From IMG/VR virus record IMGVR_UViG_3300031884_000939, positions 62,001 through 126,000 of that record: a stretch of DNA of 64,000 nucleotides. One strand, given 5' to 3'. Below, piece by piece: positions 80-62,594 of this stretch. Position 1 is the stretch's first letter; every line of letters starts with the position of its first letter. The notes below the pieces were generated by a model that saw only the letters and a program-made list of their open reading frames with translations, was not told the DNA's origin and made no database searches. A program made the position numbers and the translations under genes. This DNA comes from a virus.

Positions 80-477
80 CGAGGTCTACTCCCTATAACG
101 TGTTGAATTATTTCTGCTGTATTCTCAACATTAGACATTTTGAGTTTACAGAATAACGGCGACACTGGTGTGCTTTCTGTGTATCTAGTTGCTAACCCTT
201 GTGCTATTTCGTTTAATGACTTTGCGGCTTTATAGCCGTTGTCATTGTGTGGTAATTCTTGACTATACTTTTCATACAATTCTGTTTTATATGCTAATGC
301 TGTAGCATTGGATTGCGCTAGTAAAGGATTACTACATTGATTTTTATACATACTAGCATCTACACGAATTTCTGTAATTTGATGATATTCAATGTTATCA
401 AACTTAGTCATTAACACAGCATCTACTACTGTACAACTAACTAATACAGGTAATAATAGTGCTATAAGGCGTTTCAT
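76..477 (-). CDS. Small predicted lipoprotein in the lysis operon
   Basis: A 133-residue protein with a short charged N-terminus (MKR), a hydrophobic stretch and an LVSC lipobox, so it should be lipidated and anchored in an envelope membrane. The mature part has no motif I recognise and is mostly polar and helical. It overlaps its upstream neighbour by 4 bases and its downstream neighbour by 4 bases, so it is co-translated with the spanin and endolysin genes. A role in lysis or in the host envelope is inferred from position only. It could be a second outer-membrane spanin-like lipoprotein or a lysis regulator. Confidence 0.65.
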   Translation of the reverse strand: MKRLIALLLPVLVSCTVVDAVLMTKFDNIEYHQITEIRVDASMYKNQCSNPLLAQSNATALAYKTELYEKYSQELPHNDNGYKAAKSLNEIAQGLATRYTESTPVSPLFCKLKMSNVENTAEIIQHVIGSRPR

Positions 478-8299: not shown

Positions 8300-8773
8300 T
8301 TAAATCTTTCTTACAGGTTTATCTTGTTGTTGTTGACGAGCTGTTTTTTCTAACTCTTGCTTAACTGTTTTAGCACGAGCGATAGCTCCTGCCAACCCAC
8401 CTTGATCGTCTGTTGTGGTTTCTGTAATACTTGCTGGTGTCGAATCTGCTACCGGCAATGGATCAGCTTGTGGGGCTATAGGAGCTGATGCTACAACTGG
8501 CTGGCCTGTTGCCATAGCTGGCGCTTGTACTGGAGCTTCTGTTGAATGTTGATGGTTAGTTTGTACTGGGCCATCTGATACATTAGTTTGGCGCTGAATG
8601 CGTCTTTGTAATTGTTGATTTCTAGAATCGATAATATTACCTTGAGCATCGATTCTGTCGCCGCGAGCATTTACGCCCATATTGCCAACAGCTCTAACAT
8701 TTTCATTTTGTAAACGCATAGATCCAATGTCTACTTGTTTGCCTCTCGCTGTTTTATATACTTTAGTTGTCAT
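8300..8773 (-). CDS. Conserved T4-like phage protein with VYKTARGK start
   Basis: A 157-residue protein starting MTTKVYKTARGKQVDIGSM, followed by NENVRAVGNMGVNARGDRID, a basic, conserved-looking N-terminal domain seen in T4-like phages of aquatic bacteria. The middle is a long proline/alanine/threonine linker and the C-terminus a short charged helix. This layout suits a virion or head-associated protein, but no function is established. AGGAG precedes the ATG. Confidence 0.65.
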   Translation of the reverse strand: MTTKVYKTARGKQVDIGSMRLQNENVRAVGNMGVNARGDRIDAQGNIIDSRNQQLQRRIQRQTNVSDGPVQTNHQHSTEAPVQAPAMATGQPVVASAPIAPQADPLPVADSTPASITETTTDDQGGLAGAIARAKTVKQELEKTARQQQQDKPVRKI

Positions 8774-24072: not shown

Positions 24073-24750
24073 TTAAGTTGTTTTTTTCTTACAGCGATCC
24101 ATGTGCCATCTTTTCATGATACTAAGACCGCCAGTTTTATTACAATGAGGACAAGTTATTACTTCTTTAATTCCTGCCCTTATTCCTACTAACTCGCCCG
24201 ATGCTAACCGAGGATCGTCTACTGATACCTGCATAACATTGCCATTTTTATCTTTTACTGTAGTAGTTCCGGCTGTAGCATTAACTAACTCGCCAGTTTT
24301 AATTCTAATATCATCTACTGCTACTCTAAATTTATTGCCAGCTTTATCAACTACGGTTACCTTACCTTTAGTATGTGCTACTAACTCTCCGGATATAAAC
24401 CGAGGATCGTCAACGGCTACTCTAAATTTATTACCGGCTTTATCTATCACTGGAGTAGTGCCTTTATTGCGTCCTTTAGGACCAAACCCTCCGCCAGACT
24501 CAGGAATCCTATTAGCCCATTCTGCGCTCTCAACTATATTCCATTTCTCACTAAGTCGTCGCCCTTCATTATCAATTACCGATTTATCATCAGATTGACA
24601 TATTATTTCAGTAATATGATTCTTTCCGTGCTCTGCTAAATGTAGTTTCCAGTCAACCCCGGATCCTCGATATTTAAACGGATCCCGTTCTGTCTGTCCC
24701 AGATACTTTAATCCAGTAACCGAGTGAGTCTTAAGATAAAGATAGTGCAT
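24073..24750 (-). CDS. GIY-YIG homing endonuclease with three internal repeats and a zinc finger
   Basis: A 225-residue protein. The N-terminus is a phage GIY-YIG nuclease: MHYLYLKTHSVTGLKYLGQT, then FKYRGSGVDWKLHLAEHG, with the catalytic Arg and downstream acidic residues. Residues about 95-190 are three imperfect 32-residue repeats with core VDKAGNKFRVAVDDPR ... SGELV, probably DNA-reading modules. The C-terminus has CPHC ... KRWHMDRC, a zinc-finger-like cluster also found in the HNH enzyme at 31809. Such selfish nucleases spread between phages. The start lies 8 bases after a TATAAT box. Confidence 0.88.
   Translation of the reverse strand: MHYLYLKTHSVTGLKYLGQTERDPFKYRGSGVDWKLHLAEHGKNHITEIICQSDDKSVIDNEGRRLSEKWNIVESAEWANRIPESGGGFGPKGRNKGTTPVIDKAGNKFRVAVDDPRFISGELVAHTKGKVTVVDKAGNKFRVAVDDIRIKTGELVNATAGTTTVKDKNGNVMQVSVDDPRLASGELVGIRAGIKEVITCPHCNKTGGLSIMKRWHMDRCKKKTT
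24188..24483 (-). repeat. Three tandem coding repeats in the GIY-YIG gene
   Basis: Three units of about 96 bases (32 codons), each encoding V-x-D-K-x-G-N-x-x-x-V-x-V-D-D-x-R-x-x-x-G-E-L-V. Similar DNA sequence in the first two units suggests recent duplication. Confidence 0.8.
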
Positions 24751-24793: not shown

Positions 24794-25036
24794 TTAGAAA
24801 TAAACGTGTCGTTTGGCATAACAGTCCCAAACTAATATATTGTCCCAACTATGTGTCCAAGTTACTATAAACAGACTAAGGGTATTGTGGTCAAAGATAT
24901 GTAATTTATTGTCATCTACTCTTGCTTGAATTGAACGGCTAGTAGTTGTCCATTTTTGTAAACGGTTTCGTGCTTCTGGATCTCTCATTATTACGGTATA
25001 CAGAGAGTCACCGTTTTTAAAAACTGGTAAGGTCAT
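24794..25036 (-). CDS. Small hypothetical protein, distant member of the KWG family
   Basis: An 80-residue protein. The C-terminal half (KLHIFDHNTLSLFIVTWTHS) has the layout of the KWG family: beta strand, acidic pair, aliphatic/aromatic helix, Trp. The Lys-Trp-Gly end itself is missing and extra residues follow. Its ATG overlaps the nucleotidyltransferase stop by 4 bases. Function unknown. Confidence 0.5.
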   Translation of the reverse strand: MTLPVFKNGDSLYTVIMRDPEARNRLQKWTTTSRSIQARVDDNKLHIFDHNTLSLFIVTWTHSWDNILVWDCYAKRHVYF

Positions 25037-25782
25037 TTACGTTCTATATCTTCTTCTTGACAGTCTTCACCATATTGTATTTCAACTATGCGACACGGAT
25101 TGTCTGACATATTAATTAATTGGTGCCAAGTATTTACTGGAATGTCAATTGTTTCGTGTGTGCTGAGTTTTACAATATTGTCATCACCTGCTACACGACC
25201 TTCGCCTTCTTCTACTACCCAATACTCGCTACGCTTAAAATGTCGTTGCATACTTAAACTCTTACCTGGATTGACTGTAAGCTCTTTAACCTTCATGCCC
25301 GGAGCTTCGTGTAGTACACGATAATGACCCCATTGGCGTTCTGTTTTAGGCGCTTTCCATTCTTGTAGTATCCAAGATGATGAATTCATTTTGTTTTCGC
25401 CACCAACTCCAAATACAAATTCTAGATTGCTATCGACTAAATCCATTTCAGGAATGTTGGTACTAGTTCTATCGCCACCGTTAGCAAATATAATCTTATC
25501 ATTTGGATAACTTTGTCGGGCCATTGTGATAGCGTGTTTAGCTGAGTTATCTGAATCATTGAAGTCAATAACATAATCAACTCCTACAATGTTTTGTACG
25601 ATAGCCGAGCGTTCCGAATAAGGCATAAATGCTCGTCCTTTTTTACGCATCAGCCAAGCATCTGAATTAACACCAACTACTAATATATCTCCCAGCTTTT
25701 TTGCGGCTTGAAGGTAAGCAATATGTCCAGAGTGTAGCGGATCAAAGCCGCCAGTTACTACAACAATTTTTAAAGGTTTCAT
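25033..25782 (-). CDS. Nucleotidyltransferase-cupin fusion (sugar-nucleotide type)
   Basis: A 249-residue two-domain enzyme. Residues 5-130 are a cytidylyltransferase-fold domain with GGFDPLHSGHIAYLQAAKKL (HxGH at 17-20) and VGVNSDAWL, closest in layout to the C-terminal part of HldE, which makes ADP-heptose. Residues about 145-245 are a cupin of the type found at the end of mannose-1-phosphate guanylyltransferases: WGHYRVLHEAPGMKVKELTV, then KSLSMQRHFKRSEYWVVEEG and IPVNTWHQL. The fusion suggests activation or isomerisation of a sugar phosphate, perhaps for DNA or surface glycosylation. Coupled to neighbours by short overlaps. Confidence 0.85.
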   Translation of the reverse strand: MKPLKIVVVTGGFDPLHSGHIAYLQAAKKLGDILVVGVNSDAWLMRKKGRAFMPYSERSAIVQNIVGVDYVIDFNDSDNSAKHAITMARQSYPNDKIIFANGGDRTSTNIPEMDLVDSNLEFVFGVGGENKMNSSSWILQEWKAPKTERQWGHYRVLHEAPGMKVKELTVNPGKSLSMQRHFKRSEYWVVEEGEGRVAGDDNIVKLSTHETIDIPVNTWHQLINMSDNPCRIVEIQYGEDCQEEDIERK

Positions 25783-28530: not shown

Positions 28531-28662
28531 TTAGAGTGTAATTAGCTCGTAATCTGACTTACTTACACCACACTCCGGGCAACATACATCGTCTGGAAGT
28601 GCTTCCCAATCTGCTACTGATAACTCGTGTCCGCATACTACACATCGCATGATTTGATTCAT
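28531..28662 (-). CDS. Rubredoxin-like electron carrier
   Basis: A 43-residue protein with the two CxxC knuckles of rubredoxin: CVVCGHEL and CCPECGVSKSDYEL, separated by WEALPDDV. The C-P-x-C-G-V-x-K-x-D-Y-E end is diagnostic. The single iron centre would pass electrons to a partner. The start overlaps the rubrerythrin stop as TAATG, so the most likely partner is that peroxidase. Shorter than many rubredoxins (about 52 residues) because the N-terminal strand is trimmed. A strong terminator follows. Confidence 0.9.
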   Translation of the reverse strand: MNQIMRCVVCGHELSVADWEALPDDVCCPECGVSKSDYELITL

Positions 28663-29111
28663 TATAGTGTCTCCAATTTAGTTTGATATGCTTCGGCATG
28701 GCGTTTTTCAACTCCAGCCAATGCTTTAAAACGCTTTTCAGCTTTAGCCAATACTTCAGCAAATTGTTCAGCGTGTTCTTTTGATTCTTCGATTTGGTGC
28801 TGTGCTTCGATGGCAGCCTGTTGATTACCTTCCTCAACTGCTTCTTTAAGCATTGTTGGGTACATATAGGTAAACTCTTCGGTCTCGCCGTCGATAGCCT
28901 TTTGTAAACATTCTTTGGTAGTTGGCTTACCGATAAGCAATTCTAAATGGCCCCATGCGTGTAGCAATTCTTGGTCTGCCGTGTGTTCGAAATGCTTTGC
29001 TACTTCCTCATAGCCTTCGGCACGAGCAATCTTAGCAAAATAACGATACTTGATATGAGCTTGTGACTCGCCGGCCAATGCCGACTCAAGATTTTTAATA
29101 GTAATACTCAT
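28662..29111 (-). CDS. Rubrerythrin (diiron peroxidase), no rubredoxin domain
   Basis: A 149-residue four-helix diiron protein. Ligands are in ALAGESQAHIKYRYFA (Glu), HFEHTADQELLHAWGH (ExxH), EEFTYMYPTMLKEAVEEG and the final AEQFAEVL/KRHAEAYQ helix. Full rubrerythrins carry a C-terminal rubredoxin domain; here that domain is a separate downstream gene. The pair should reduce hydrogen peroxide in the cytoplasm. I chose ATG 29111 because AAGGAG lies 7 bases upstream. The promoter at 29137 is close to consensus. Confidence 0.92.
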   Translation of the reverse strand: MSITIKNLESALAGESQAHIKYRYFAKIARAEGYEEVAKHFEHTADQELLHAWGHLELLIGKPTTKECLQKAIDGETEEFTYMYPTMLKEAVEEGNQQAAIEAQHQIEESKEHAEQFAEVLAKAEKRFKALAGVEKRHAEAYQTKLETL

Positions 29112-29136
29112 TGACATCTCCTTATAGTAAAGTAAT

Positions 29137-29165
29137 ATTGTAATAGTATTTACTAATAAGATCAA
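29137..29165 (-). promoter_or_regulatory. Sigma70-type promoter of the rubrerythrin-rubredoxin operon
   Basis: -35 TTGATC, 17-base spacer, -10 TACAAT, 25 bases from the start codon. The leader lacks the exact TATAGTAAAC box. Confidence 0.7.
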
Positions 29166-30804: not shown

Positions 30805-30833
30805 ATTATAGCAAAATTGGATTTAATTGTCAA
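30805..30833 (-). promoter_or_regulatory. Early sigma70 promoter overlapping an upstream stop codon
   Basis: -35 TTGACA, 17-base spacer, -10 TATAAT, then TATAGTTAGA and AAAGGAG before the ATG at 30776. The TGA of the 30830 gene lies inside the -35 hexamer. Confidence 0.85.
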
Positions 30834-31060
30834 CTCCACTTCATTAAGAAGGAAAGATAGTCTCTTTCGGAGTCAAAATAGAAGATATATTCACCATTTT
30901 TGGTATGAGTGCTTACTTCTATTAGTTGCCAGCGCCATTCGGCTACCAATTCATGTTTACACCAATCCAATATTTGTTCAATAATGCCAAAAGATTTAAT
31001 TATTCTGTGAGCATGATTATATTGCTCTTTTGAATGAATAAATTCACCTTGTATTATCAT
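30830..31060 (-). CDS. KWG-family small protein
   Basis: A 76-residue member of the paralogous family. The C-terminus reads NGEYIFYFDSERDYLSFLMK and then W-S. Upstream comes a helix with HELVAEWRWQLIEVST. The pattern is strand, F-x-x-E/D-x-D-x-x-x-F-L/M-L-K-W. The start overlaps the stop of the next family member by 4 bases. No biochemical function is known. Confidence 0.7.
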   Translation of the reverse strand: MIIQGEFIHSKEQYNHAHRIIKSFGIIEQILDWCKHELVAEWRWQLIEVSTHTKNGEYIFYFDSERDYLSFLMKWS

Positions 31061-31278
31061 GCGGTTACCTCACCAAACTTCAATTTGAATAGCAAAGCGT
31101 CGTGTTCTTCTTTGAATATCCAATCCATACAGTTACCGCCAATGTCAGTAATGTATCTACCACCAGGTAAACCAAATAATTCTACTGCTTTATAGCACAC
31201 TTCGTCCCATCTTAATATATTATCAAGATCATTTTGTAGTGTTACCCTAACACTGAATGTATATTCAGGATCACGCAA
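31057..31278 (-). CDS. KWG-family small protein, KFG variant
   Basis: A 73-residue protein. The end reads CMDWIFKEEHDALLFKLKFG plus EVTA: the family C-terminus with Phe for Trp and four extra residues. The middle FGLPGGRYITDIGG is a strand-loop. Coupled to both neighbours. Confidence 0.65.
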   Translation of the reverse strand: MRDPEYTFSVRVTLQNDLDNILRWDEVCYKAVELFGLPGGRYITDIGGNCMDWIFKEEHDALLFKLKFGEVTA

Positions 31279-31510
31279 TATAAGTTTTCCTTATGTAATC
31301 GTCTGATTGTTCAGGAGTCATTGTATAATATAATAAGTTATCTTTTATATTAAAACGATTACAAAAACTTTGTCCATAGCGCAATCCATGTAAGGCGTCC
31401 CAGATAAAATCTTTGACCCACAGTTCGTATTCATCTAAAGTAATTCTTAGACTAGTGTGTCGTTCGTCATGTAATTCGTGATGTGTAAAAACAGAATGTC
31501 CGCTAGTCAT
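31271..31510 (-). CDS. Small protein, divergent KWG-family member
   Basis: A 79-residue protein whose end (NIKDNLLYYTMTPEQSDDYI, then RKTYIA) keeps the strand and acidic-helix layout but not the Lys-Trp-Gly. The first part (YELWVKDFIWDALHGLRYGQ) resembles the helical front half of other members. Overlaps the next gene by 8 bases and starts in a TAATG overlap with a 13-residue micro-ORF. Confidence 0.55.
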   Translation of the reverse strand: MTSGHSVFTHHELHDERHTSLRITLDEYELWVKDFIWDALHGLRYGQSFCNRFNIKDNLLYYTMTPEQSDDYIRKTYIA

Positions 31511-31551: not shown

Positions 31552-31904
31552 TAGTTTTTCAGACTATCTATTATAAAATCACCAGCATCTCCAAACTCAT
31601 AGCCTTGATGCGGATACACAGCAATATTCCGTTCTCTACGATATATTGTAGTGAGCCAATGCCACTGTCCGTTGATCCGACGTGGTTTCCACGGACCTTG
31701 CGGTCCTTTAATAAATTTAATAAGTGTTAGACGAGATGATAAATAAGAATGCCGATCACGATACTGGACATATCTACCGGCTCTAACAGTTAATAAGGAA
31801 CTATCAGCATGATATTTATACCCAACAAATACACTAAATGGTATTTTGCCATTATCAATAATGCCAGGACTCGTACTAATACTGGTTATAACGAACAACA
31901 TCAT
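31551..31904 (-). CDS. Hypothetical protein, probably disturbed at its 5' end by the HNH gene
   Basis: A 117-residue frame. The C-terminal half (FIKGPQGPWKPRRINGQWHW, YRRERNIAVYPHQGYEFGDA) looks like a real conserved-type small phage protein. The first 35 residues come from DNA antisense to the start of the HNH endonuclease and look unnatural. The native start may have been lost when the endonuclease entered, so this may be a truncated or newly extended gene. It no longer has a visible promoter. Confidence 0.5.
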   Translation of the reverse strand: MMLFVITSISTSPGIIDNGKIPFSVFVGYKYHADSSLLTVRAGRYVQYRDRHSYLSSRLTLIKFIKGPQGPWKPRRINGQWHWLTTIYRRERNIAVYPHQGYEFGDAGDFIIDSLKN

Positions 31905-32480
31905 ATTACTCCTGAGTGCTTTTTCAAAAACAGAACTCGCAAAGGTCCAGCTGGACAGCTAGTCGGTAATCCTGAAGATCCATCCAACAAAGTAAAACTT
32001 ACAGCAAAAGAACACTTCATTTGTCATCACCTTCTAACTAAAATGCTTGCCGATACTCGCCCACGGGCACAAATGCTAAAAGCCCTAGAACGAATGACCG
32101 CAAGTAATAATAAACATCAACGCTACAAAATAACAGCCCGACTATTTCAACAAATTCGTATCGAAGCCGCTACAGCACATTCAACTCTAATCAAAGGCAA
32201 ACCGAGCCATTCAAAAGGTAAAAAATGCCCTAACATCTCAATGGCTAAAACAGGTAAATCTATTAAACAACCACCTAGAACCGAACAGCATCGTATCAAT
32301 CTTGGCAATAGCCTCAAAGGTAAACCTGCTTGGAACAAAGGTAAAACTTACACTAACAAACCATACAAACGATTAACCTGTCCTCATTGCGGATTAGAAG
32401 GTAGCATCGCTAATATTAAACGCTGGCATAACAATAACTGTAAATCAATCCCAATGGGCACGGAAGTACTTTCCAAATAG
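31809..32480 (+). CDS. HNH homing endonuclease with NUMOD3-like motifs and zinc finger
   Basis: A 223-residue protein on the strand opposite to all its neighbours. It opens KYTKWYFAIINNARTR and has the HNH core: EQHHITPECFF, then KVKLTAKEHFICHHLLTKM. Next come NUMOD3-type basic repeats (GKPSHSKGKK and LKGKPAWNKGKTY) for DNA binding, and a C-terminal CPHC ... KRWH ... C finger like that of the GIY-YIG enzyme at 24073. It is a mobile endonuclease gene inserted into a minus-strand operon. The 3' end overlaps the convergent gene by 36 bases. Confidence 0.9.
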   Translation: MIFIPNKYTKWYFAIINNARTRTNTGYNEQHHITPECFFKNRTRKGPAGQLVGNPEDPSNKVKLTAKEHFICHHLLTKMLADTRPRAQMLKALERMTASNNKHQRYKITARLFQQIRIEAATAHSTLIKGKPSHSKGKKCPNISMAKTGKSIKQPPRTEQHRINLGNSLKGKPAWNKGKTYTNKPYKRLTCPHCGLEGSIANIKRWHNNNCKSIPMGTEVLSK

Positions 32481-50288: not shown

Positions 50289-50317
50289 AGTATAGCACTC
50301 AATTTAACTATTGTCAA
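50289..50317 (-). promoter_or_regulatory. Sigma70-type promoter of the methyltransferase operon
   Basis: -35 TTGACA, 17-base spacer, -10 TATACT, 26 bases to the start. The -35 overlaps the end of the 50314 gene. Confidence 0.85.
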
Positions 50318-50529
50318 ACATCTTCGCCTTTTAATATTCGCCATGCTTTGGGCTCTAATCGTACATACTGCCAAAACCATCGCTTAACTCGTTTGGAGTA
50401 GCGTAATCTAAAATATCGCTTTTCGGTTCTAAACATAAACCCAAAGCTATCCTTGTCGGATAATGGATAAAAGGTTAGTCCGTTGTTTAAGTATTCGCCT
50501 TCTTGGTGTCGAATATGTAAGTATCTCAT
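50314..50529 (-). CDS. Small basic aromatic protein
   Basis: A 71-residue protein from ATG 50529 (ATGA overlap with the KWG-family member upstream). Beta-rich and Arg/Tyr/Phe-rich: MFRTEKRYFRLRYSKRVKRW, FWQYVRLEP. No family recognised. It ends the KWG array. Confidence 0.55.
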   Translation of the reverse strand: MRYLHIRHQEGEYLNNGLTFYPLSDKDSFGFMFRTEKRYFRLRYSKRVKRWFWQYVRLEPKAWRILKGEDV

Positions 50530-50759
50530 GCCCACCTTAACATAAACATTAGATAGGCTTGTTCACTGTCAAACATAATTTCATCGTATCCACTACCAGA
50601 TCTGACAGATAACCCGTGTGTTTCTTTAAGCCATTGATCTCTTTCAATGCTGTTATTAAATAACCAATCCCCGCGAGTAGCTGTCACACAATTTCGCATT
50701 GGGGCAATAATGTTAGATAGTCGTACAGAATACATTGTTTTTACCAACTCTTGGCGCAT
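50526..50759 (-). CDS. KWG-family small protein, RWA variant
   Basis: A 77-residue paralogue. The end is YDEIMFDSEQAYLMFMLRWA. The middle holds RDQWLKETHGLSVRSGSGYD. The stop overlaps the next gene's ATG by 4 bases. Function unknown. Confidence 0.7.
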   Translation of the reverse strand: MRQELVKTMYSVRLSNIIAPMRNCVTATRGDWLFNNSIERDQWLKETHGLSVRSGSGYDEIMFDSEQAYLMFMLRWA

Positions 50760-50995
50760 AAGGCATAATGTACATATACCTTTTCTTCCATAAGAATAAT
50801 GTTGTTGCTAAAAACTGTCCCCCATCCATTCATGTTAGGATAATTTTCCTCTAGCCACTTTAATACATCGCAGTCGCCGTTAATGCGCCACAGTACTTGG
50901 TCTTCCCACTCTTTGGTTTCATTGTTCCATACTTTCTTTTTAGTAGCTCTGCGGCGCCATTGTTCTTCTTCTACATAATCAACCATAATATTCAC
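50741..50995 (-). CDS. Small protein in the KWG array, divergent end
   Basis: An 84-residue protein starting from GTG at 50995 (or ATG 9 bases later). Reads VDYVEEEQWRRRATKKKVWN, then DVLKWLEENYPNMNGWGTVF and ends KVYVHYALCAKSW. The last residues could be a degenerate version of the family motif. Function unknown. Confidence 0.55.
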   Translation of the reverse strand: MNIMVDYVEEEQWRRRATKKKVWNNETKEWEDQVLWRINGDCDVLKWLEENYPNMNGWGTVFSNNIILMEEKVYVHYALCAKSW

Positions 50996-50996
50996 A

Positions 50997-51236
50997 CTAA
51001 CTCCATTTTAATACAAACATTGTATAATTAGATTCAATCCTAAATGTAATATAAAAATAACTTTTATGATAATTTCTATTTAAACGGCCCCCGAATTCTA
51101 ATAATTTACTATTAACTAGTTTACCCCAGTCGTCCCTATTTAATAATATACTGTCCTTATAATCAGGAAATACATAATTCATAAAATTATCCCACCACAC
51201 GGGTTTTTCATTACGGCCTAATTCAATACAAATCAT
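50997..51236 (-). CDS. KWG-family small protein, KWS variant
   Basis: A 79-residue paralogue ending FYITFRIESNYTMFVLKWS. The first half (NEKPVWWDNFMNYVFPDYKD) is helical and aromatic. Between it and the end lies NRNYHKS, a turn seen in several members. Confidence 0.7.
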   Translation of the reverse strand: MICIELGRNEKPVWWDNFMNYVFPDYKDSILLNRDDWGKLVNSKLLEFGGRLNRNYHKSYFYITFRIESNYTMFVLKWS

Positions 51237-51248
51237 AATTAATATCCT

Positions 51249-51419
51249 TTATTTGGCGGCAGGCCTGCGTGGTTTACTATGATCCCTCCTTAATTCAATA
51301 AACAATCTATTGCGCCTATAATGAATTAAATCCATTATACTAGCAATTAAAAATGCCATAAAGATTAATCCCGTTAATATTGCAAGAATTAATATTAAAA
51401 TAATTAAAATTAACTCCAT
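51249..51419 (-). CDS. 56-residue membrane protein nested in the KWG array
   Basis: Starts MELILIILILILAILTGLIF, a strong membrane helix, then a basic tail (RRNRLFIELRRDHSKPRRPA). Its ATG lies inside the codons for Lys-Trp of the upstream family member (AAATGG), a 10-base overlap. Inner-membrane protein with cytoplasmic basic tail predicted. The overlap forces strong translational coupling. Confidence 0.7.
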   Translation of the reverse strand: MELILIILILILAILTGLIFMAFLIASIMDLIHYRRNRLFIELRRDHSKPRRPAAK

Positions 51420-51616
51420 TTTAATAAAAACATCATAGCGTCATGCTCTGTATTAAATTTAACCATAAAATCCCCGTCAATACCATTTTCAACGTCAATT
51501 ATATTAAATTGACTACAAAAATAATCGTGTTGAATTGGCATGGGTCGCCCAGTATCTGTTAATGAGCAAGCCGCACGATGAAATGCCCTAAAAGGAATTT
51601 GAATTTCTATCCCCAT
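51410..51616 (-). CDS. KWG-family small protein, KWS variant
   Basis: A 68-residue paralogue from the ATG at 51616, which is nested in the AAATGG codons of the preceding member. The end is GDFMVKFNTEHDAMMFLLKW and S. The front (MGIEIQIPFRAFHRAACSLT) is beta-rich. Confidence 0.75.
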   Translation of the reverse strand: MGIEIQIPFRAFHRAACSLTDTGRPMPIQHDYFCSQFNIIDVENGIDGDFMVKFNTEHDAMMFLLKWS

Positions 51617-51873
51617 TTTAATAAAAACCAAGAATAATCTTTTTCTTTACGAAAATATAATTGAACTCCCACAGCCGTATGGGCAAAATTACCTGTACTT
51701 TCATAATGTGGGCGCCAACACCAACGAGGGTTATTTTTACGAGTAAATCCCTGGGAGCCTAAATTCTTCTGTAGCCAAGCAAAAATATCATCAACATAAT
51801 TATCCTCGTCTTCAATTATATTAATAGCATAAGGCCAACGACGCTCTACTATTCTACGCTCGTGACTATTCAC
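51607..51873 (-). CDS. KWG-family small protein
   Basis: An 88-residue paralogue starting at GTG 51873. The front helix (DNYVDDIFAWLQKNLGSQGF) is followed by the turn, the strand VQLYFR and the end KEKDYSWFLLKWG. Its last codons host the next gene's start. Confidence 0.75.
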   Translation of the reverse strand: MNSHERRIVERRWPYAINIIEDEDNYVDDIFAWLQKNLGSQGFTRKNNPRWCWRPHYESTGNFAHTAVGVQLYFRKEKDYSWFLLKWG

Positions 51874-51874
51874 A

Positions 51875-52099
51875 TTAACCCCATTTTAACATAAACCAAG
51901 TATAATCTTCGTCATGGTCAAAGATATATGTTATATTGCCGGGACCGTGTGAACCGTCAGGATCAACACGGCATTTAAATGCTTCACGCCACCGTTGACC
52001 ATATTGGCGGGGAGTTTCCAATCGTGCTACAGGTAATGTTCTTTTGGCATTCCAATAAGCTCGATTAAAAGCATCATCTTTAATATTAACGCGAATCAT
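51875..52099 (-). CDS. KWG-family small protein
   Basis: A 74-residue paralogue ending ITYIFDHDEDYTWFMLKWG. The front contains AYWNAKRTLPVARLETPRQY and RWREAFKCRV. Close in the last 18 residues to the 51607 member (D-Y-x-W-F-x-L-K-W-G), suggesting local duplication. Confidence 0.75.
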   Translation of the reverse strand: MIRVNIKDDAFNRAYWNAKRTLPVARLETPRQYGQRWREAFKCRVDPDGSHGPGNITYIFDHDEDYTWFMLKWG

Positions 52100-52329
52100 A
52101 TATAAATTAATCCAAATAATGTGGCCATTCCAGGGTCTTTAAAACACATAGCAATATAAGCTATATTATTCTTTTTATATGTATAATGCTCATATTCAAT
52201 ATCTTCATGATAATTACGGCCAGCTAACCAAGCAGACATATACCAATATTGATGCTTGTGCATTTCAATATGTACTTGATGGGGATAATGTATAGCTATA
52301 TCTTTAACAATTAAATCGAAATTATTCAT
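52096..52329 (-). CDS. Small protein in the KWG array, motif degenerate
   Basis: A 77-residue protein. It has the strand and aromatic front (IHYPHQVHIEMHKHQYWYMS) and ends NIAYIAMCFKDPGMATLFGL plus IYI, the family position with the Lys-Trp-Gly replaced. Overlaps both neighbours. Confidence 0.6.
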   Translation of the reverse strand: MNNFDLIVKDIAIHYPHQVHIEMHKHQYWYMSAWLAGRNYHEDIEYEHYTYKKNNIAYIAMCFKDPGMATLFGLIYI

Positions 52330-52690
52330 TTAAATCCTTTTCGAATCTAGCACGAACTAATGGCTCATTGGGTTGATCCCGCCTACTGCGTACATATATC
52401 TGCCCCTCGGGATAATCCATGGTTAACTGCCAATTCAAATACTTTTTATTATACAAATCACGCTCTTTATATAACATAGCTGTGTATAAATCAGGTAATG
52501 TACTGAATTTAGGAGTAACAGCGTTAGGATTAATTAACGCATTAATTAAAATATCCTGTTGTATTCCTTTATAAGTTAATGGCTCGGAATCTACACGATC
52601 CCATAAACTATTGGGAATAGATTCACGAACAATATTAACTAAATCCTTTTCCCGCATAATAACAGTACGAACAATAGTTTTTATCCCCAT
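52322..52690 (-). CDS. Hypothetical protein inserted in the KWG array
   Basis: A 122-residue protein without the family motif: EKDLVNIVRESIPNSLWDRV, LLYTAM-like helix (LPDLYTAMLYKERDLYNKKY) and an Arg-rich end. Its ATG sits inside the AAATGG codons of the upstream member. Function unknown. Confidence 0.6.
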   Translation of the reverse strand: MGIKTIVRTVIMREKDLVNIVRESIPNSLWDRVDSEPLTYKGIQQDILINALINPNAVTPKFSTLPDLYTAMLYKERDLYNKKYLNWQLTMDYPEGQIYVRSRRDQPNEPLVRARFEKDLNE

Positions 52691-52902
52691 TTTAACTCCG
52701 CATATGATAGTAATGATTCATTAATAAAAGTAAAATCTACACTAGCTGGGATAATATCGTCGTTGGTAAAATAATCCCCACGGCTACCATTATAACGCCA
52801 AGTAAAATCCACGCCAGCCTTAAGCCCCATAGACTTTAATTCTTCCACATAAGACATAGCTTCCATGGCATTCTTAACTGGTATAGACACATAATTAGGC
52901 AT
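52681..52902 (-). CDS. KWG-family small protein, first of the array
   Basis: A 73-residue paralogue ending SVDFTFINESLLSYAELKWG. The front is VSIPVKNAMEAMSYVEELKS. The upstream 60 bases carry a GCGC-type hairpin that is repeated, inverted, at 58158. No clear sigma70 promoter is visible, so the array may be read from further upstream. Confidence 0.7.
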   Translation of the reverse strand: MPNYVSIPVKNAMEAMSYVEELKSMGLKAGVDFTWRYNGSRGDYFTNDDIIPASVDFTFINESLLSYAELKWG

Positions 52903-52914
52903 GGTTTTGCTATA

Positions 52915-52940
52915 GAACTAGAGAACAAGCGCGAAGCGCA
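52915..52940 (+). repeat. Inverted-repeat copy 1 (GAACTAGAGAACA ... GCGAAGCGCA)
   Basis: GAACTAGAGAACA followed by AGCGCGAAGCGCA. It recurs on the opposite strand at 58158-58185 with one CA insertion. Each copy includes the hairpin GCGC-GAA-GCGC. The pair encloses about 5.2 kb. Confidence 0.8.
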
Positions 52941-52955
52941 CGTGCACGATAGATA

Positions 52956-53228
52956 TTATTCAATAACAATCTCCCCACCGTATTTTAGTATATAAAAGGA
53001 TGCTAACTCCTCGGAATCAAACTCTACATAATGTAATTGATGTTGCTTAGGCCCACCAAACTTAATACGCCACCCCTCGCCCACAGCTAATACAGGATAA
53101 TCAGAGCCAGATATAATCGGCCCAACTAATTCAATTAATTCCTGCATAACCCTCTTAAGTTCACGCCTATACACACCATCGTCATATATCCCACTTAATC
53201 TATTAGTAATGGAAACGATGGTAGTCAT
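52956..53228 (-). CDS. KWG-family small protein, KYG variant
   Basis: A 90-residue paralogue. The end is HQLHYVEFDSEELASFYILK, Y-G-G and five more residues. The front helix is YRRELKRVMQELIELVGPII. It lies just inside the inverted repeat, separate from the main array. Confidence 0.7.
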   Translation of the reverse strand: MTTIVSITNRLSGIYDDGVYRRELKRVMQELIELVGPIISGSDYPVLAVGEGWRIKFGGPKQHQLHYVEFDSEELASFYILKYGGEIVIE

Positions 53229-54341: not shown

Positions 54342-55508
54342 CTACTTCTTAGGGGCTTGCTGTACGGTAACTGAACCTTGCACTGCAGCGTTTTGACTTT
54401 GTGTATCTTGACGCCAATTACCCCATGCTTGACCCAGCTTTTGATTAAAACTATCACTATGACGGTTTCTAAACAGTATTAACACTAGTTCATGATTAGG
54501 GTCTACCCACGCTTTTTGGCCATACATACCTAACCATACATATCCATTCTTAATGACAGGATGTGTCCATACTCCAGTGCCATAACCAAAGTATATGCCG
54601 GCTTCTTCAGGTTTCACTACAGTATGTGTAGCATTTAGCATATATTCCTGTAAACACTTTCCATTAGCGCCTTTAATAGTATCCAATCCATATTGTGCCA
54701 AGTGTGCCCAATCAGTTAATGTAGCGGATAATCCATAGGATGTATTAATACGATTATCCTTGTCCCTAAACCAATCCATGGGCTGTTCTGTGTGGCTTTT
54801 ATTAACTAGTTCACGCATATAGTATTCAGTACCTTTTAAGTGGTCCAATACTAATCCTAATGCGCTGGTATTCAAGTTATCATATGTATAATCATGGTCA
54901 TAACTTTTGAGGTTTTTGGGATTATTCATTAGGTCTGTTTGACTACTAAACTGTTTAGTTAATAGCCAAAAGTCCCCAGGGTTTTCACCGGTTCCTTGGC
55001 GGTCTGGGCCCGGGGCTCCTGATGTCATGGATAGTAATTGGGCTATAGTAGCACGGCCATACGCATTGTTTTTAAGCTCGGGCGCATATGATTCCGCGGT
55101 GTCATTTAGTGATTTAATATCGCCCCGACATAGTGCTTGACCCACTAATAAATTGGTTACGCCCTTGGCCAAACTCCATCCGAGGTATTGTGTGTTTATG
55201 TCCTTGTTACGCTCATATACTATAGTGCCGTGATCCAATAGTATCATGGATAAGTTATTGGGATCCTCTTCATACATCGTGTCCATACGAGCTTTAACTT
55301 GGGGGCTCAATTGCTCCTTGTCCCTAGCTAATGCCTCAGGTTTAGTGGGCTCAAATGTTATATGATTTAAGTCATGGCTAACACCGCCCTCCATCATATA
55401 GTATGTGGATACACCCTTACCGTCTGGGGTAAAGTTTAAATCTGAGCCCGGCACTAATGCTAGTGCATGGCCAGCATATAATAACAGTAATAATAGCCAT
55501 TTATTCAT
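54342..55508 (-). CDS. Exported serine hydrolase of the beta-lactamase/esterase fold
   Basis: A 388-residue protein from ATG 55508 with a signal peptide (MNKWLLLLLLYAGHALA). The penicillin-binding serine hydrolase motifs are present: S-x-x-K in YLGWSLAKGVTN and Y-x-N in YTYDNLNTSALG, with DHGTIVYER preceding. The layout is closest to class-C-like beta-lactamase/6-aminohexanoate-dimer-hydrolase type enzymes. In the periplasm it could act on peptidoglycan peptides or esters. The KTG-like motif is not obvious (WVWLGMYGQKAW may be its position). Confidence 0.85.
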   Translation of the reverse strand: MNKWLLLLLLYAGHALALVPGSDLNFTPDGKGVSTYYMMEGGVSHDLNHITFEPTKPEALARDKEQLSPQVKARMDTMYEEDPNNLSMILLDHGTIVYERNKDINTQYLGWSLAKGVTNLLVGQALCRGDIKSLNDTAESYAPELKNNAYGRATIAQLLSMTSGAPGPDRQGTGENPGDFWLLTKQFSSQTDLMNNPKNLKSYDHDYTYDNLNTSALGLVLDHLKGTEYYMRELVNKSHTEQPMDWFRDKDNRINTSYGLSATLTDWAHLAQYGLDTIKGANGKCLQEYMLNATHTVVKPEEAGIYFGYGTGVWTHPVIKNGYVWLGMYGQKAWVDPNHELVLILFRNRHSDSFNQKLGQAWGNWRQDTQSQNAAVQGSVTVQQAPKK

Positions 55509-55516
55509 ATTAATTC

Positions 55517-55750
55517 CTAGTAGTAACAAACATGGCTAGAACCATGCCTAGAATCCATAGGGCCAGGATAGTTAACAGCTAGACGAGTCTTATATAACTG
55601 TGTAGCCAAGTTAATCTGCTCATGAGTAAAGCCATAGTCATATATGCCGTTAGGTCCGTAGAAGTCCAGCATATAATTAGTAAAGTTATTAGTATAATCA
55701 AACCCTAGAGGAGTCATGCCATATAATGCTTCAACTTGTGGGGTCTTCAT
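55517..55750 (-). CDS. Small phage protein upstream of the hydrolase
   Basis: A 77-residue soluble protein rich in Tyr and Asn (YGMTPLGFDYTNNFTNYMLD, FTHEQINLATQLYKTRLAVN). It shares one base with the upstream gene. No recognised domain. Confidence 0.6.
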   Translation of the reverse strand: MKTPQVEALYGMTPLGFDYTNNFTNYMLDFYGPNGIYDYGFTHEQINLATQLYKTRLAVNYPGPMDSRHGSSHVCYY

Positions 55751-56891: not shown

Positions 56892-57332
56892 ATGTTCTAT
56901 ATTATAACCTTTTTCGGCTGGACACTATATCTATACTGTTTACACCGTATAGCACACTCTGGATCAATACCCTTTTTACGGCGTGCTCACATGGCACATC
57001 ATGCTCAAATACGTATAAAGGGTACTACTCACTGGCATTATACTAACTTATTCTTATATACAGATACTTGGGCTGTAACTAGGGATATGTGGGTTACTGA
57101 GATTATTCCCACTATTATATTTGCTATAGTATTCAATGCTTACTGGTTATTGGGTTTATACTATATATGGGCTGCGTTTTTACAAGAACCATTAGAGCAT
57201 AATCCCAAATTAGGTATATTCCCATTTACTAGTGGAGTATGGCATTTAAAGCATCATAGTAATGTATATTGTAACTATGGATTATTCTTCCCTATATGGG
57301 ATAAGTTGTTTAATACTGAATCTAAGTTATAA
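56892..57332 (+). CDS. Fatty-acid-hydroxylase/sterol-desaturase-like membrane diiron protein
   Basis: A 146-residue membrane protein. The histidine boxes are LHRIAHSGS, RRAHMAHHAQIR and VWHLKHHSNVYCNYGLFFPI, followed by WDKLFNT, which is the fatty acid hydroxylase superfamily pattern. Three to four hydrophobic helices (TEIIPTIIFAIVFNAYWLLG) surround them. Shorter than cellular members. It probably adds a hydroxyl or double bond to host lipids during infection. It lies alone on the plus strand with a late-type promoter, unlike its early minus-strand neighbours. Confidence 0.85.
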   Translation: MFYIITFFGWTLYLYCLHRIAHSGSIPFLRRAHMAHHAQIRIKGTTHWHYTNLFLYTDTWAVTRDMWVTEIIPTIIFAIVFNAYWLLGLYYIWAAFLQEPLEHNPKLGIFPFTSGVWHLKHHSNVYCNYGLFFPIWDKLFNTESKL

Positions 57333-57364: not shown

Positions 57365-57586
57365 TTAGTCATGTTCCATACCCACTATATCCAATATAGT
57401 AGCATACTCATATCCCAAGTTCTTATTACCCGTATGGCGCAGTCTTCTATATACATCCTGATTAACTAGTAGTTCATCATTAATGCTATACTGTGGTTCT
57501 AGTGTATAATAGGGTTCCCAATGGCCAGGAGTCACTACTAGGGTTACAACCTTTTTGGGTATGCTGGTTATTTTAGGTATTGCCAT
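57365..57586 (-). CDS. Small hypothetical protein
   Basis: A 73-residue protein: basic strand start (KITSIPKKVVTLVVTPGHWE) and a middle with YSINDELLVNQDVYRRLRHT. Overlaps the KWG-family gene upstream by 14 bases. No known domain. Confidence 0.55.
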   Translation of the reverse strand: MAIPKITSIPKKVVTLVVTPGHWEPYYTLEPQYSINDELLVNQDVYRRLRHTGNKNLGYEYATILDIVGMEHD

Positions 57587-57812
57587 ATTTCAATCTTATT
57601 AGTATTGCGTATTGTTCGTTATCCACTTCTAGACGCCATTCGGAATGTTGTCGTTTCCAATTACTAGCATCTTTAATATATTCATTGTATAAGCGCCATC
57701 CCACTCCACCTATACTATCATGTAAGTAATAGCGCCTAGGACTTATGTTACTGTGACAGTAATTAGCTATGTCCTCTTTGCGTATATGTTGGGGAATCTC
57801 AATCGTTGTCAT
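57573..57812 (-). CDS. KWG-family small protein, KYG variant
   Basis: A 79-residue paralogue ending WRLEVDNEQYAILIRLKYGN and T. The middle holds SIGGVGWRLYNEYIKDASNW. Overlaps neighbours on both sides. Confidence 0.65.
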   Translation of the reverse strand: MTTIEIPQHIRKEDIANYCHSNISPRRYYLHDSIGGVGWRLYNEYIKDASNWKRQHSEWRLEVDNEQYAILIRLKYGNT

Positions 57813-59731: not shown

Positions 59732-59751
59732 GTGTTGTTATTCTACAACAC
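59732..59751 (-). terminator. Hairpin overlapping the GroES stop codon
   Basis: GTGTTGT-AGAATA-ACAACAC on the minus strand, with the TAA in the loop, followed by TTGTAGTTT. Probably a weak terminator of the ClpP-GroES operon. Confidence 0.6.
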
Positions 59752-60025
59752 CTATGATTTCTTCTTCTTTAAGCACCAAATAGTCTTGTCCATCTACTTT
59801 AACTGGAGTACCTGCGCCCGGGCCAAACATAATAACATCGCCTACTTTAACGGATAATGGAATTAATACACCTTGGGCTGTGACACGACCTGGGCCCGCG
59901 GATATAATAGTTCCTTGATTATTCTTTTCAGCATTACTATCGGGAATAATAAGTCCTGAGCTAGTTTTAGTTTCTGGAGGAGCACGATGTATTAGTACAC
60001 GATCTGCTGTGGGATTAAATGCCAT
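59738..60025 (-). CDS. groES: GroES co-chaperonin
   Basis: A 95-residue protein matching Cpn10 throughout: FNPTADRVLIHRAPPETKTS, the mobile loop SSGLIIPDS, then GTIISAGPGRV, VKVGDVIMFGPGAGTPVKVD and YLVLKEEEIIGVVE. It caps GroEL during protein folding. Only the co-chaperonin is here, so the host or a distant phage gene must supply GroEL. It is separated from ClpP by one base. A gp31-like gene at 7904 makes two co-chaperonins in one phage. Confidence 0.95.
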   Translation of the reverse strand: MAFNPTADRVLIHRAPPETKTSSGLIIPDSNAEKNNQGTIISAGPGRVTAQGVLIPLSVKVGDVIMFGPGAGTPVKVDGQDYLVLKEEEIIGVVE

Positions 60026-60026
60026 G

Positions 60027-60650
60027 TTATACTCTCTTTTCTACAATTTTATCGGCTAGGCCATATTCGACTGCTTCTTGAGCAGATAGGAATGTATCAT
60101 GCTTCATAGCTTGATACAGTTCATCATAACTTTTGCCTGCGGTATTATGTTTAACATACAATTCGGTTAAGCGTTGGTTAATGCGCTTGGATTCTTCAAA
60201 AGTACGGCGAGCATCTTCAAACTCTAACTCTTGTACATGAACAGAACCCGAAGTACCAGGAGTACCTGAACTTACACGGTGAATCATAGTGCGTGACTCT
60301 GGCAATACTAATCGTTTACCTGGAGCGCCAGCTTGTGCTAAAAATGAACCCATTGAGCAAGCCTGACCTAATACAATAGTGGACACATCTGGTTTAATAA
60401 ACTGCATAGTGTCATAGATAGCTAATCCAGCGGTAACTAGTCCGCCTGGGCTGTTAATATAAAACAAGATATCACTGTCTGGATCTTCTGCTTCTAAAAA
60501 TAGCATTTGTGCTACAATTAAACTGGCTGTGTGTTCACTTACCGCTTGGTCCAACATTACAATACGATCTTTAAGTAATCGACTATAAATGTCGTAACTG
60601 CGTTCACCTTTTGCGGTCTGCTCAACCACCATTGGAATCAAACTTGGCAT
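60027..60650 (-). CDS. clpP: ClpP serine protease subunit
   Basis: A 207-residue ClpP with the full catalytic triad: Ser99 in GQACSMGSF, His124 in RTMIHR and Asp185 in [17 protein letters not shown]. The region [20 protein letters not shown] is the conserved handle and oxyanion strand. The substitution A-C-S-M-G for A-S-S-M-G keeps the nucleophile. It may replace or mix with host ClpP to alter proteolysis. No ClpX or ClpA is nearby, so it would use host unfoldases. ATAAAGGATT upstream is the ribosome site. Confidence 0.95.
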
Positions 60651-61490: not shown

Positions 61491-62594
61491 TTAGTTAGAA
61501 CACTGGGATTTTGGCACCAATTTCAGCTGAGTTTGTGAGGCTAAATTCATTTGCTCGGGTGTAGTTCTTAGCTGTATAGCTAACTCCCGGGAAAAGTTGC
61601 CATTTATGTTAATATCAGGAGATCCATAGTTTCTAATATTAACAAAGTACTTGCCATCTGTCCAGCCATTTTCCTGATGGTCCAACACAGGCCAATAGAA
61701 ACATTCCCTGTGCATAACTTGGTTTTGATTAGTAAGTACTGTAAGTTCGATAGCAGGGTTGGATAATATCATAGTATTGATTAAGGCATTGGCTCTTGCT
61801 ACATCACTGAATCCTAACTTACCTCCGTTACCTCCCATAAACCCACCTGTGGCTATTGCGATAACTGCGGCATTCTGATTACAGTTACCCCAGCATGATC
61901 CTGCTCGTGGATCTTGGGCCGTTGCCTTAAGAGCTTCCCACAATGAATTTAAGTAATCGCGATTCCAACTTAACTTAAATGGGATAACCAATGTGCCATT
62001 GCGATTGTTGTCAAACTTTAATTGTGCTGGTTGTAATTCAATATTCATACCACGACGATAAAAATCGTTTAGTACTATACCTACTAACCTATCGCCTTGA
62101 CTTCTTTCATACTGTAATGTGCTTAGTTGTGCCGCGGCCTTGGCGCCTTCTAAGTCCCCAGATACTTTACTTTCGTTTAATAGTCTGTTGGCAATGGCAC
62201 TCTTTTTAATCCAAACTTTCATCTTAGTTTGGTATCCGTTATTGGATGGTTCTTGATTTACTATTTCGTATCGGGTAACATAGCCACTAGCATAACTGAT
62301 AATTTCATCTCTAGTTAAATGACTATTGTTAACTTCGGTTTCAGATGCTATTACGGATCCCACTGCTTGCTCAACGGCTATACGAAATCCGTTTAGTCTA
62401 GATTCTTCTAGTGTAGCGCCTTCGCCAGCTACTTCGATATAATAAGTCTTTTCGCCTTCCCAGATGATCCACTGACCTAGCGATATAATAATACCTAATG
62501 GGTTAGGCATTAGCATGGCACCAGTAAAAGCAAACTGCGCTTGTGCTGAAGCAATTAAGCCAACACAAGCGAGTCCTGCTAAGATGCGACGCAT
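61491..62594 (-). CDS. Exported FlgT/LPP20-like protein
   Basis: A 367-residue protein with a signal peptide (MRRILAGLACVGLIASAQAQ). Residues 50-125 (YYIEVAGEGATLEESRLNGF, RIAVEQAVGSVIASETEVNN) match the N-terminal domain of FlgT/LPP20-type surface proteins, which bind envelope structures. The second half is beta-rich with two cysteines in GSCWGNCNQ. It overlaps the upstream lipoprotein gene region by 1 base spacing. Such proteins are very unusual in phages; it may alter the host envelope or motility. Confidence 0.7.
   Translation of the reverse strand: MRRILAGLACVGLIASAQAQFAFTGAMLMPNPLGIIISLGQWIIWEGEKTYYIEVAGEGATLEESRLNGFRIAVEQAVGSVIASETEVNNSHLTRDEIISYASGYVTRYEIVNQEPSNNGYQTKMKVWIKKSAIANRLLNESKVSGDLEGAKAAAQLSTLQYERSQGDRLVGIVLNDFYRRGMNIELQPAQLKFDNNRNGTLVIPFKLSWNRDYLNSLWEALKATAQDPRAGSCWGNCNQNAAVIAIATGGFMGGNGGKLGFSDVARANALINTMILSNPAIELTVLTNQNQVMHRECFYWPVLDHQENGWTDGKYFVNIRNYGSPDININGNFSRELAIQLRTTPEQMNLASQTQLKLVPKSQCSN

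Follow-up and report, generated by a model that had tools for sequence, protein, structure and literature searches.

A large phage family of small proteins in which exchangeable fronts are joined to a conserved tail domain whose coding DNA probably doubles as the start signal of the next gene

Translationally coupled ATGA operons, in which the start of one gene overlaps the stop of the preceding one and the ribosome-binding site lies inside that upstream gene, occur in bacteria and phages. The arrays of small genes described here resemble such operons in both respects but differ in that their signal sits in a conserved protein motif shared by hundreds of paralogues. A second point of comparison is the T4-like capsid protein gp23 (PF07068, PHROG 138): a minority of the variable N-terminal regions, or fronts, found in relatives of these genes are homologous to pieces of gp23, although each comprises only 30-60 residues joined to a non-gp23 domain. 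A review describes Gol as a 29-residue stretch of gp23, located in the first quarter of the protein and more conserved than the rest of it, and reports that it binds EF-Tu and sets off the Lit defence (PMC3014915); several defences sense capsid proteins (PMC11312562).

The DNA that we analyzed, hereafter the window, is a stretch of 64,000 nucleotides that extends from base 62001 to base 126000 in a virus record of 158,513 bases. The profiles for gp23 and the large terminase found no match in this record, which may therefore represent only part of a larger phage genome; in the gp23 search the control genomes gave no match either, although the same profile did match other phage records. A sequence-only reading of the window had proposed a paralogous family of ten full members and five degenerate relatives, with variable fronts on a constant C-terminal tail, and every ORF that it named was confirmed in place on the minus strand. 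The family is real. A profile HMM trained exclusively on sequences from other phages recovered ten members in the record at E<1e-3, three of them outside the window and seven inside it (51607, 30830, 50526, 31057, 51875, 51410 and 50997, with E values from 1.5e-13 to 3.6e-5), while shuffling the record's ORFs 20 times gave nothing better than E=0.05. Searches with phmmer against the ORFs of other phages linked all ten full window members to relatives, 52956 being the weakest (Table 1). Agreement at the C-terminus is partly circular, because these relatives were initially fetched from IMG/VR via DNA patterns derived from the C-terminal motif; those patterns did not select for the upstream W-C...W part of the profile, for full-length matching or for co-clustering. 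The degenerate relatives fared less evenly: 31271 and 50741 have phmmer homologues in other phages, which themselves fail the family profile, and 24794, 52096 and 57941 did not rise above chance in searches against other phages. The 31271 companion ORF is conserved among other family-carrying phages.

Table 1. Family members and companion ORFs in the window (window coordinates) and elsewhere in the record (record coordinates)
Position	Strand	Feature	Basis
30830..31060	minus	family member, 76 aa, ends LMKWS	profile E=4e-12; phmmer E=1e-20 to L013:10290-10526
31057..31278	minus	family member, 73 aa, ends LKFGEVTA, FGLPG subtype	profile E=1.5e-8; phmmer 3e-14
31271..31510	minus	companion ORF overlapping 31057, family membership only putative	phmmer 1.5e-16 to L013:5049-5300
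50526..50759	minus	family member, 77 aa, ends MLRWA	profile E=5.5e-9; phmmer 1e-4
50741..50995	minus	diverged companion, 84 aa	phmmer 7e-8 to L108:18734-18991; profile 0.0015
50997..51236	minus	family member, 79 aa, ends VLKWS	profile E=3.6e-5; phmmer 1.5e-6
51410..51619	minus	family member, ends LLKWS	profile E=3.6e-7; phmmer 1e-8; offsets -10
51607..51873	minus	family member, 88 aa, ends LLKWG, modelled	profile E=1.5e-13; phmmer 3e-5
51875..52099	minus	family member, 74 aa, ends MLKWG	profile E=1.5e-8; phmmer 4e-6
52681..52902	minus	family member, 73 aa, ends ELKWG, modelled	phmmer 6e-10; 37% identity to L037:6046-6261
52956..53228	minus	diverged member, 90 aa, ends LKYGGEIVIE	phmmer 0.004; profile 0.012; weakest of ten
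57573..57812	minus	diverged member, 79 aa, ends LKYGNT, LHxSIGGxGW subtype	phmmer 8e-9
record 95-364		family member outside window	profile HMM
record 8312-8566		family member outside window	profile HMM
record about 128387-128614		family member outside window	profile HMM

The window holds a small set out of a very large, almost exclusively phage family. From two motif scans, a tail-cassette scan, the relatives of two chimeras, and stretches spanning the full record of the window and that of a giant phage, we gathered at least 243 loci, at least 216 of which contain family ORFs, numbering at least 1,361 (at least 1,054 distinct). Members are mostly 60-160 residues long, about 60 of which form the constant domain, and variable fronts on a constant tail are seen across the family. 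The copy number, already called a heavy investment in the sequence-only reading, proved larger than stated: the densest array among the loci listed packs 30 family ORFs into one 11.6-kb stretch, giant-phage records have 5 to 42 profile matches each, and one 364-kb genome (G004) has 33, mainly in two arrays. Several of the IMG/VR contigs with the family measure 200-600 kb. In a prokaryote genome collection the tail cassette was found once, in a 6.4-kb MAG contig holding 14 family ORFs. Among cultured phages, none of three tblastn queries (the window set in concatenated form and two conserved members) found a match, and chimera queries matched only the core genes themselves and no family member. 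Pfam, PHROG and the PDB contain no family for the tail domain, and searches of the open library brought up no description of such mini-protein arrays.

Structure prediction points to one compact fold common to two independent subfamilies. The model of 51607 (alignment of 80 sequences) and that of 52681 (alignment of 11 sequences) both have a mean pLDDT of 85.5; built from separate alignments and compared by element order only, they display the same beta-alpha-beta-beta-alpha order, with one extra short strand in 52681, and in both the last helix ends at K-W. The single fold expected from the sequence-only reading is thus predicted for these two subfamilies. Judged from the list of elements, this alternating order is shared with small ferredoxin-like and PII-like domains, but the tail models have no sequence match to these and a PDB structure search returned nothing significant for either model (best E 0.9 and 0.2). 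Compared by structure, the 51607 model matches uncharacterized phage proteins in BFVD (from uncultured Caudovirales, BcepSauron and Atu_ph07) with Foldseek probabilities of 0.97-1.0, mostly at about equal length, although the best E is only about 1e-3 (probability 1.0). None of these proteins has an assigned function, and they are likely members of the same family.

The DNA encoding the last residues appears to have a second role. In 386 of the 432 members that have a terminal W followed by one to eight residues and enough downstream sequence, the start codon of the next ORF lies no more than 3 nt beyond the stop, in the form of ATGA in 217 of the 386. Codon choice is strongly skewed: AGG encodes the arginine preceding W in 218 of 305 such members, versus 176 of the 2,245 arginines at other places in these genes, and the leucine of the tail motif is TTG in 237 of 361 cases versus about 23% elsewhere. 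In relatives, L-R-W-S-stop is typically encoded as TTGAGGTGGTCATGA, which may be read as simultaneously offering GAGGTG, a ribosome-binding site, and ATG, the next start; TTGAGGTGGTCATGA and AAATGGGGATAG are candidate coupling sequences upstream of the next gene. In the window phage, the AAA-TGG codons directly supply the next ATG, with overlaps of 51607 into 51410, of 51410 into the ORF at 51249-51419 and of 52681 into the one at 52322-52690. Translation of 51410 is likely to begin at the ATG that the K-W codons of 51607 contain; its listed TTG start (51631) is farther upstream. The stop of 50526 overlaps the ATGA start of the ORF at 50314-50535 (start offset -4). The final residue is mostly of the NNA-codon type (S, L, A, G, Q, E, T), which would be expected if the overlap requires an A before TGA, and the terminal G, S or A would at least partly reflect a nucleotide constraint. 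The sequence-only reading had supposed that the motif is kept for binding one common target. As it stands this is not supported: in most members the same nucleotides start the next gene, which explains at least the last residue and the choice of leucine and arginine codons. K/R-W is nevertheless kept in 39 of 46 members that have no coupled downstream gene, a figure to be read knowing that the profile itself selects for K/R-W, and there is therefore some protein constraint too. As the tail DNA would be the initiation region of the next gene, translation of an array probably proceeds as a coupled chain, and these patterns strongly support the view that the tail acts as a portable "domain plus translation-restart" cassette.

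What the cassette carries could be recognized in relatives only. The fronts of window members match nothing known, none matches the gp23 profile (PF07068) and no captured piece was recognized in them; most fronts in the family as a whole likewise have no match among known families. Four tested fronts of relatives, however, pass the curated PF07068 cut-off of 24.4 bits (L036, 46.3; L137, 42.9; L046, 35.4; L142:3207, 30.1). They cover only positions 2-58 or 130-219 of the 376-position profile and, being fragments only, their proteins are not classed as capsid proteins. A first gp23 segment is found in 16 profile members, and three further ORFs with a similar front fall outside the family profile. 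Compared with the intact gp23 of G004, whose gene lies elsewhere in that genome (283387-284583), gp23 pieces from several phages show 41-55% identity, and G004 also carries such fragments. When ten intact gp23 sequences are aligned, the most conserved 29-residue regions are T4 100-128, 450-478 and 261-289. Segment 1 covers the first of these, a piece with YYAPY (T4 449) adjoins the second, and the third seems to be the one represented by segment 2. By its position, segment 1 may also overlap the EF-Tu-binding Gol region, since T4 100-128 fits the published description of Gol.

Other fronts display motifs of core enzymes. N-[LI]-C-x-E is present in 15 fronts versus 0.21 expected in shuffles, and in the two cases tested it aligns with the ribonucleotide reductase (RNR) active site of G004; the N-x-C-x-E motif of NrdA is there and the full barrel is absent, so that this too is a piece only. 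GRQ-x-GK occurs in seven fronts, with none expected in shuffles, and these fronts contain the Walker A region of a P-loop ATPase alone, the remaining ATPase domain being absent. The L138 and L142 records match a large-terminase profile at this motif with E about 1e-5, the PHROG_2 match in the L138 record (E about 1e-5) spanning about 40 positions, and a comparison with DnaB-type helicases gave E about 0.004; the source may have been either a large terminase or a DnaB-type helicase. A polymerase-B-like LNS-x-[YF]-G, assigned by eye in two fronts, is perhaps a piece of polymerase motif B. The RNR, P-loop and polymerase-like motifs are all far above shuffled expectation, the counts being of sequences rather than of independent events, and several fronts have two or three captured pieces in tandem (for example P-loop then RNR, or RNR then gp23). 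Since capture is recognizable only where the source is conserved, the apparent concentration on conserved motifs is biased. A thymidylate synthase match (E=0.009) and other single weak Pfam matches were judged to be chance. We rejected assembly artefacts, because related chimeras are found in several independent metagenome contigs, and we disfavor DNA-level sites such as homing-endonuclease targets, as synonymous sites vary freely while the protein is conserved, although such enzymes can tolerate wobble changes.

Two types of fronts are under purifying selection. Between related phages, dN/dS is 0.10-0.15 for gp23-type fronts where computable and 0.13-0.32 for RNR-type fronts, with many synonymous changes. 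Fronts and tails have also recombined, since L132 and L135 have a tail dS of 0 and a front dS of 0.57, and a similar mismatch is seen between L126 and L127. Segment 1 of gp23 is combined with three or more tail clusters, and the fronts found on the YKFSRAKWY-type tail are gp23, RNR plus gp23, P-loop plus RNR, or unrecognized.

We consider the best overall explanation, to which we give a probability of roughly 0.4, to be that these are coupled arrays of decoys or competitors built on a common scaffold by front swapping. Each protein would consist of a variable front and the constant domain, predicted to end in a helix with F-x-L-K/R-W-x-stop, its gene arranged head to tail with the next one and the DNA of its last residues probably doubling as the next initiation region. 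Fronts would swap between tails, and in some relatives they would be short pieces of gp23, RNR, a P-loop ATPase and possibly DNA polymerase, kept by purifying selection. The evidence for the domain, the coupling and the modular fronts is good, whereas the function is what we infer: most likely, protein surfaces are presented on the common scaffold as decoys or competitors, which may mimic phage core proteins or, with unrecognized fronts, meet other targets, and which may occupy host factors or sensors or interfere with rival phages. Fronts that preserve sensed regions on a stable scaffold would fit such a role. The sequence-only reading had suggested host takeover or evasion by adaptors or decoys; the core-protein fronts of relatives suit the decoy part, which stops short of proof, and no such front is recognized in the window. 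This last point and the detection bias call for caution. A Gol mimic could, moreover, trigger Lit rather than block it, and we know of no defence that reads the RNR active site. That giant phages use coupled arrays to display the most conserved motifs of capsid, RNR, P-loop ATPase and polymerase, as systematic and evolving protein decoys that would jam host sensors or chaperone factors recognizing those motifs, is a bolder version that we regard as doubtful.

A possible but less likely alternative is that the arrays encode diverse and specific host-takeover proteins, in which a common scaffold meets many unrelated partners, as for other accessory early phage proteins, with the core-protein pieces forming only a minor offshoot. 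The many fronts without a match, the number of profile matches per record and the unrecognized type of all window members agree with this, and nothing speaks directly against it, but it leaves the recurrence of core-protein motifs on several tails unexplained. It is unlikely that the family is instead a gene nursery, that is, a coupling cassette, either convenient or selfish, whose duplicated copies become fused to passing DNA, core genes included, through illegitimate recombination, leaving most fronts functionless. Such a process would suit the huge copy number and divergence, the recombination between fronts and tails and the predominance of unmatched fronts; junk fusion is nevertheless disfavored because the gp23- and RNR-type fronts tested show purifying selection, and conserved motifs are retained across different phages. 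That fragments of capsid, reductase or ATPase are dominant-negative inhibitors of co-infecting phages seems improbable: the pieces do derive from core phage proteins and are conserved, but the phage's own proteins share these motifs, so that self-inhibition would have to be avoided, and it is not obvious how an active-site loop on its own would inhibit. Finally, a C-terminal motif that is a nucleotide signal only, with the protein end as a by-product, would account for the AGG and TTG bias and the overlapping starts but is rejected as the whole story and very improbable, since uncoupled members keep K/R-W, the conserved F, E/D and upstream W lie outside the signal, and synonymous sites vary freely where the protein is conserved.

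In large uncultured phages the small proteins are encoded in operons of up to about 30 genes, and the databases searched contain no such family. More than a thousand sampled ORFs, almost all from uncultured and often giant phages, have thus been invisible to the protein-family libraries searched. They would represent an unusual dual use of coding DNA, in which a conserved protein end is also the start signal of the next gene, and a route to new proteins in which pieces of core viral genes are reused under selection, and they may provide concrete, testable decoy candidates against defences that sense conserved phage proteins.

The family array is densest, among the matches listed, in the IMG/VR locus L223 (IMGVR_UViG_3300044613_002694), where a single stretch of 11.6 kb holds 30 family ORFs and has the tail coupling cassette in at least 22 exact copies. 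This cassette is the DNA of the last tail residues, which probably doubles as the ribosome-binding site and start of the next gene. The prokaryote genome collection yielded only one match to this cassette, in L152 (DLXM01000070.1), a 6.4-kb contig assigned to a Bacteroidetes MAG. Since 14 family ORFs sit within these 6.4 kb, L152 is probably a phage contig that was binned into the MAG.

Many contigs also encode a long subfamily, its members 130-160 aa in length, whose front is conserved around "HGCKTWREYERRYD...YYHGYP" and for which a database search returned no match. Examples from the fetched loci are listed in the table, which also gives several genes of the window. Two window ORFs, each adjoining family or claimed family ORFs, have in common a zinc-ribbon-like C-terminal end; judged by eye, they are homing-endonuclease-like, and a Pfam search with them gave no match. 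As a separate observation, the large terminase of record G016 (locus L146) seems to carry an intein within its Walker A motif; in relatives of the family, this motif also occurs among the captured fronts.

Features in the window and long-subfamily examples
Feature	Position	Strand	Remark
GroES (Cpn10), ClpP, rubrerythrin	59738-60650 and 28662-29165		E=1.5e-29, 1e-64 and 1.6e-15, respectively; all phage-encoded
Nucleotidyltransferase	25033-25782		fused to cupin/mannose-6-phosphate isomerase-type domain
Beta-lactamase-fold protein	54342-55529		
Fatty acid hydroxylase	56892-57332		
Zinc-ribbon-like C-terminal end	24073-24750 (whole ORF)	-	CPHC...IxxWHxxxC type
Zinc-ribbon-like C-terminal end	31809-32480 (whole ORF)	+	CPHC...IxxWHxxxC type
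Long subfamily (examples; others similar)	L028:6136-6558, L075:12314-12724, L043:2419-2871		

As for annotated phage proteins, weak structural matches (E 0.5-0.9) were found in BFVD to A0A385EBZ8 of Caulobacter phage CcrBL9 and A0A0F6WCM5 of Sinorhizobium phage phiN3, both annotated as peptidyl-tRNA hydrolase, in which the tail domain is possibly fused to this enzyme.
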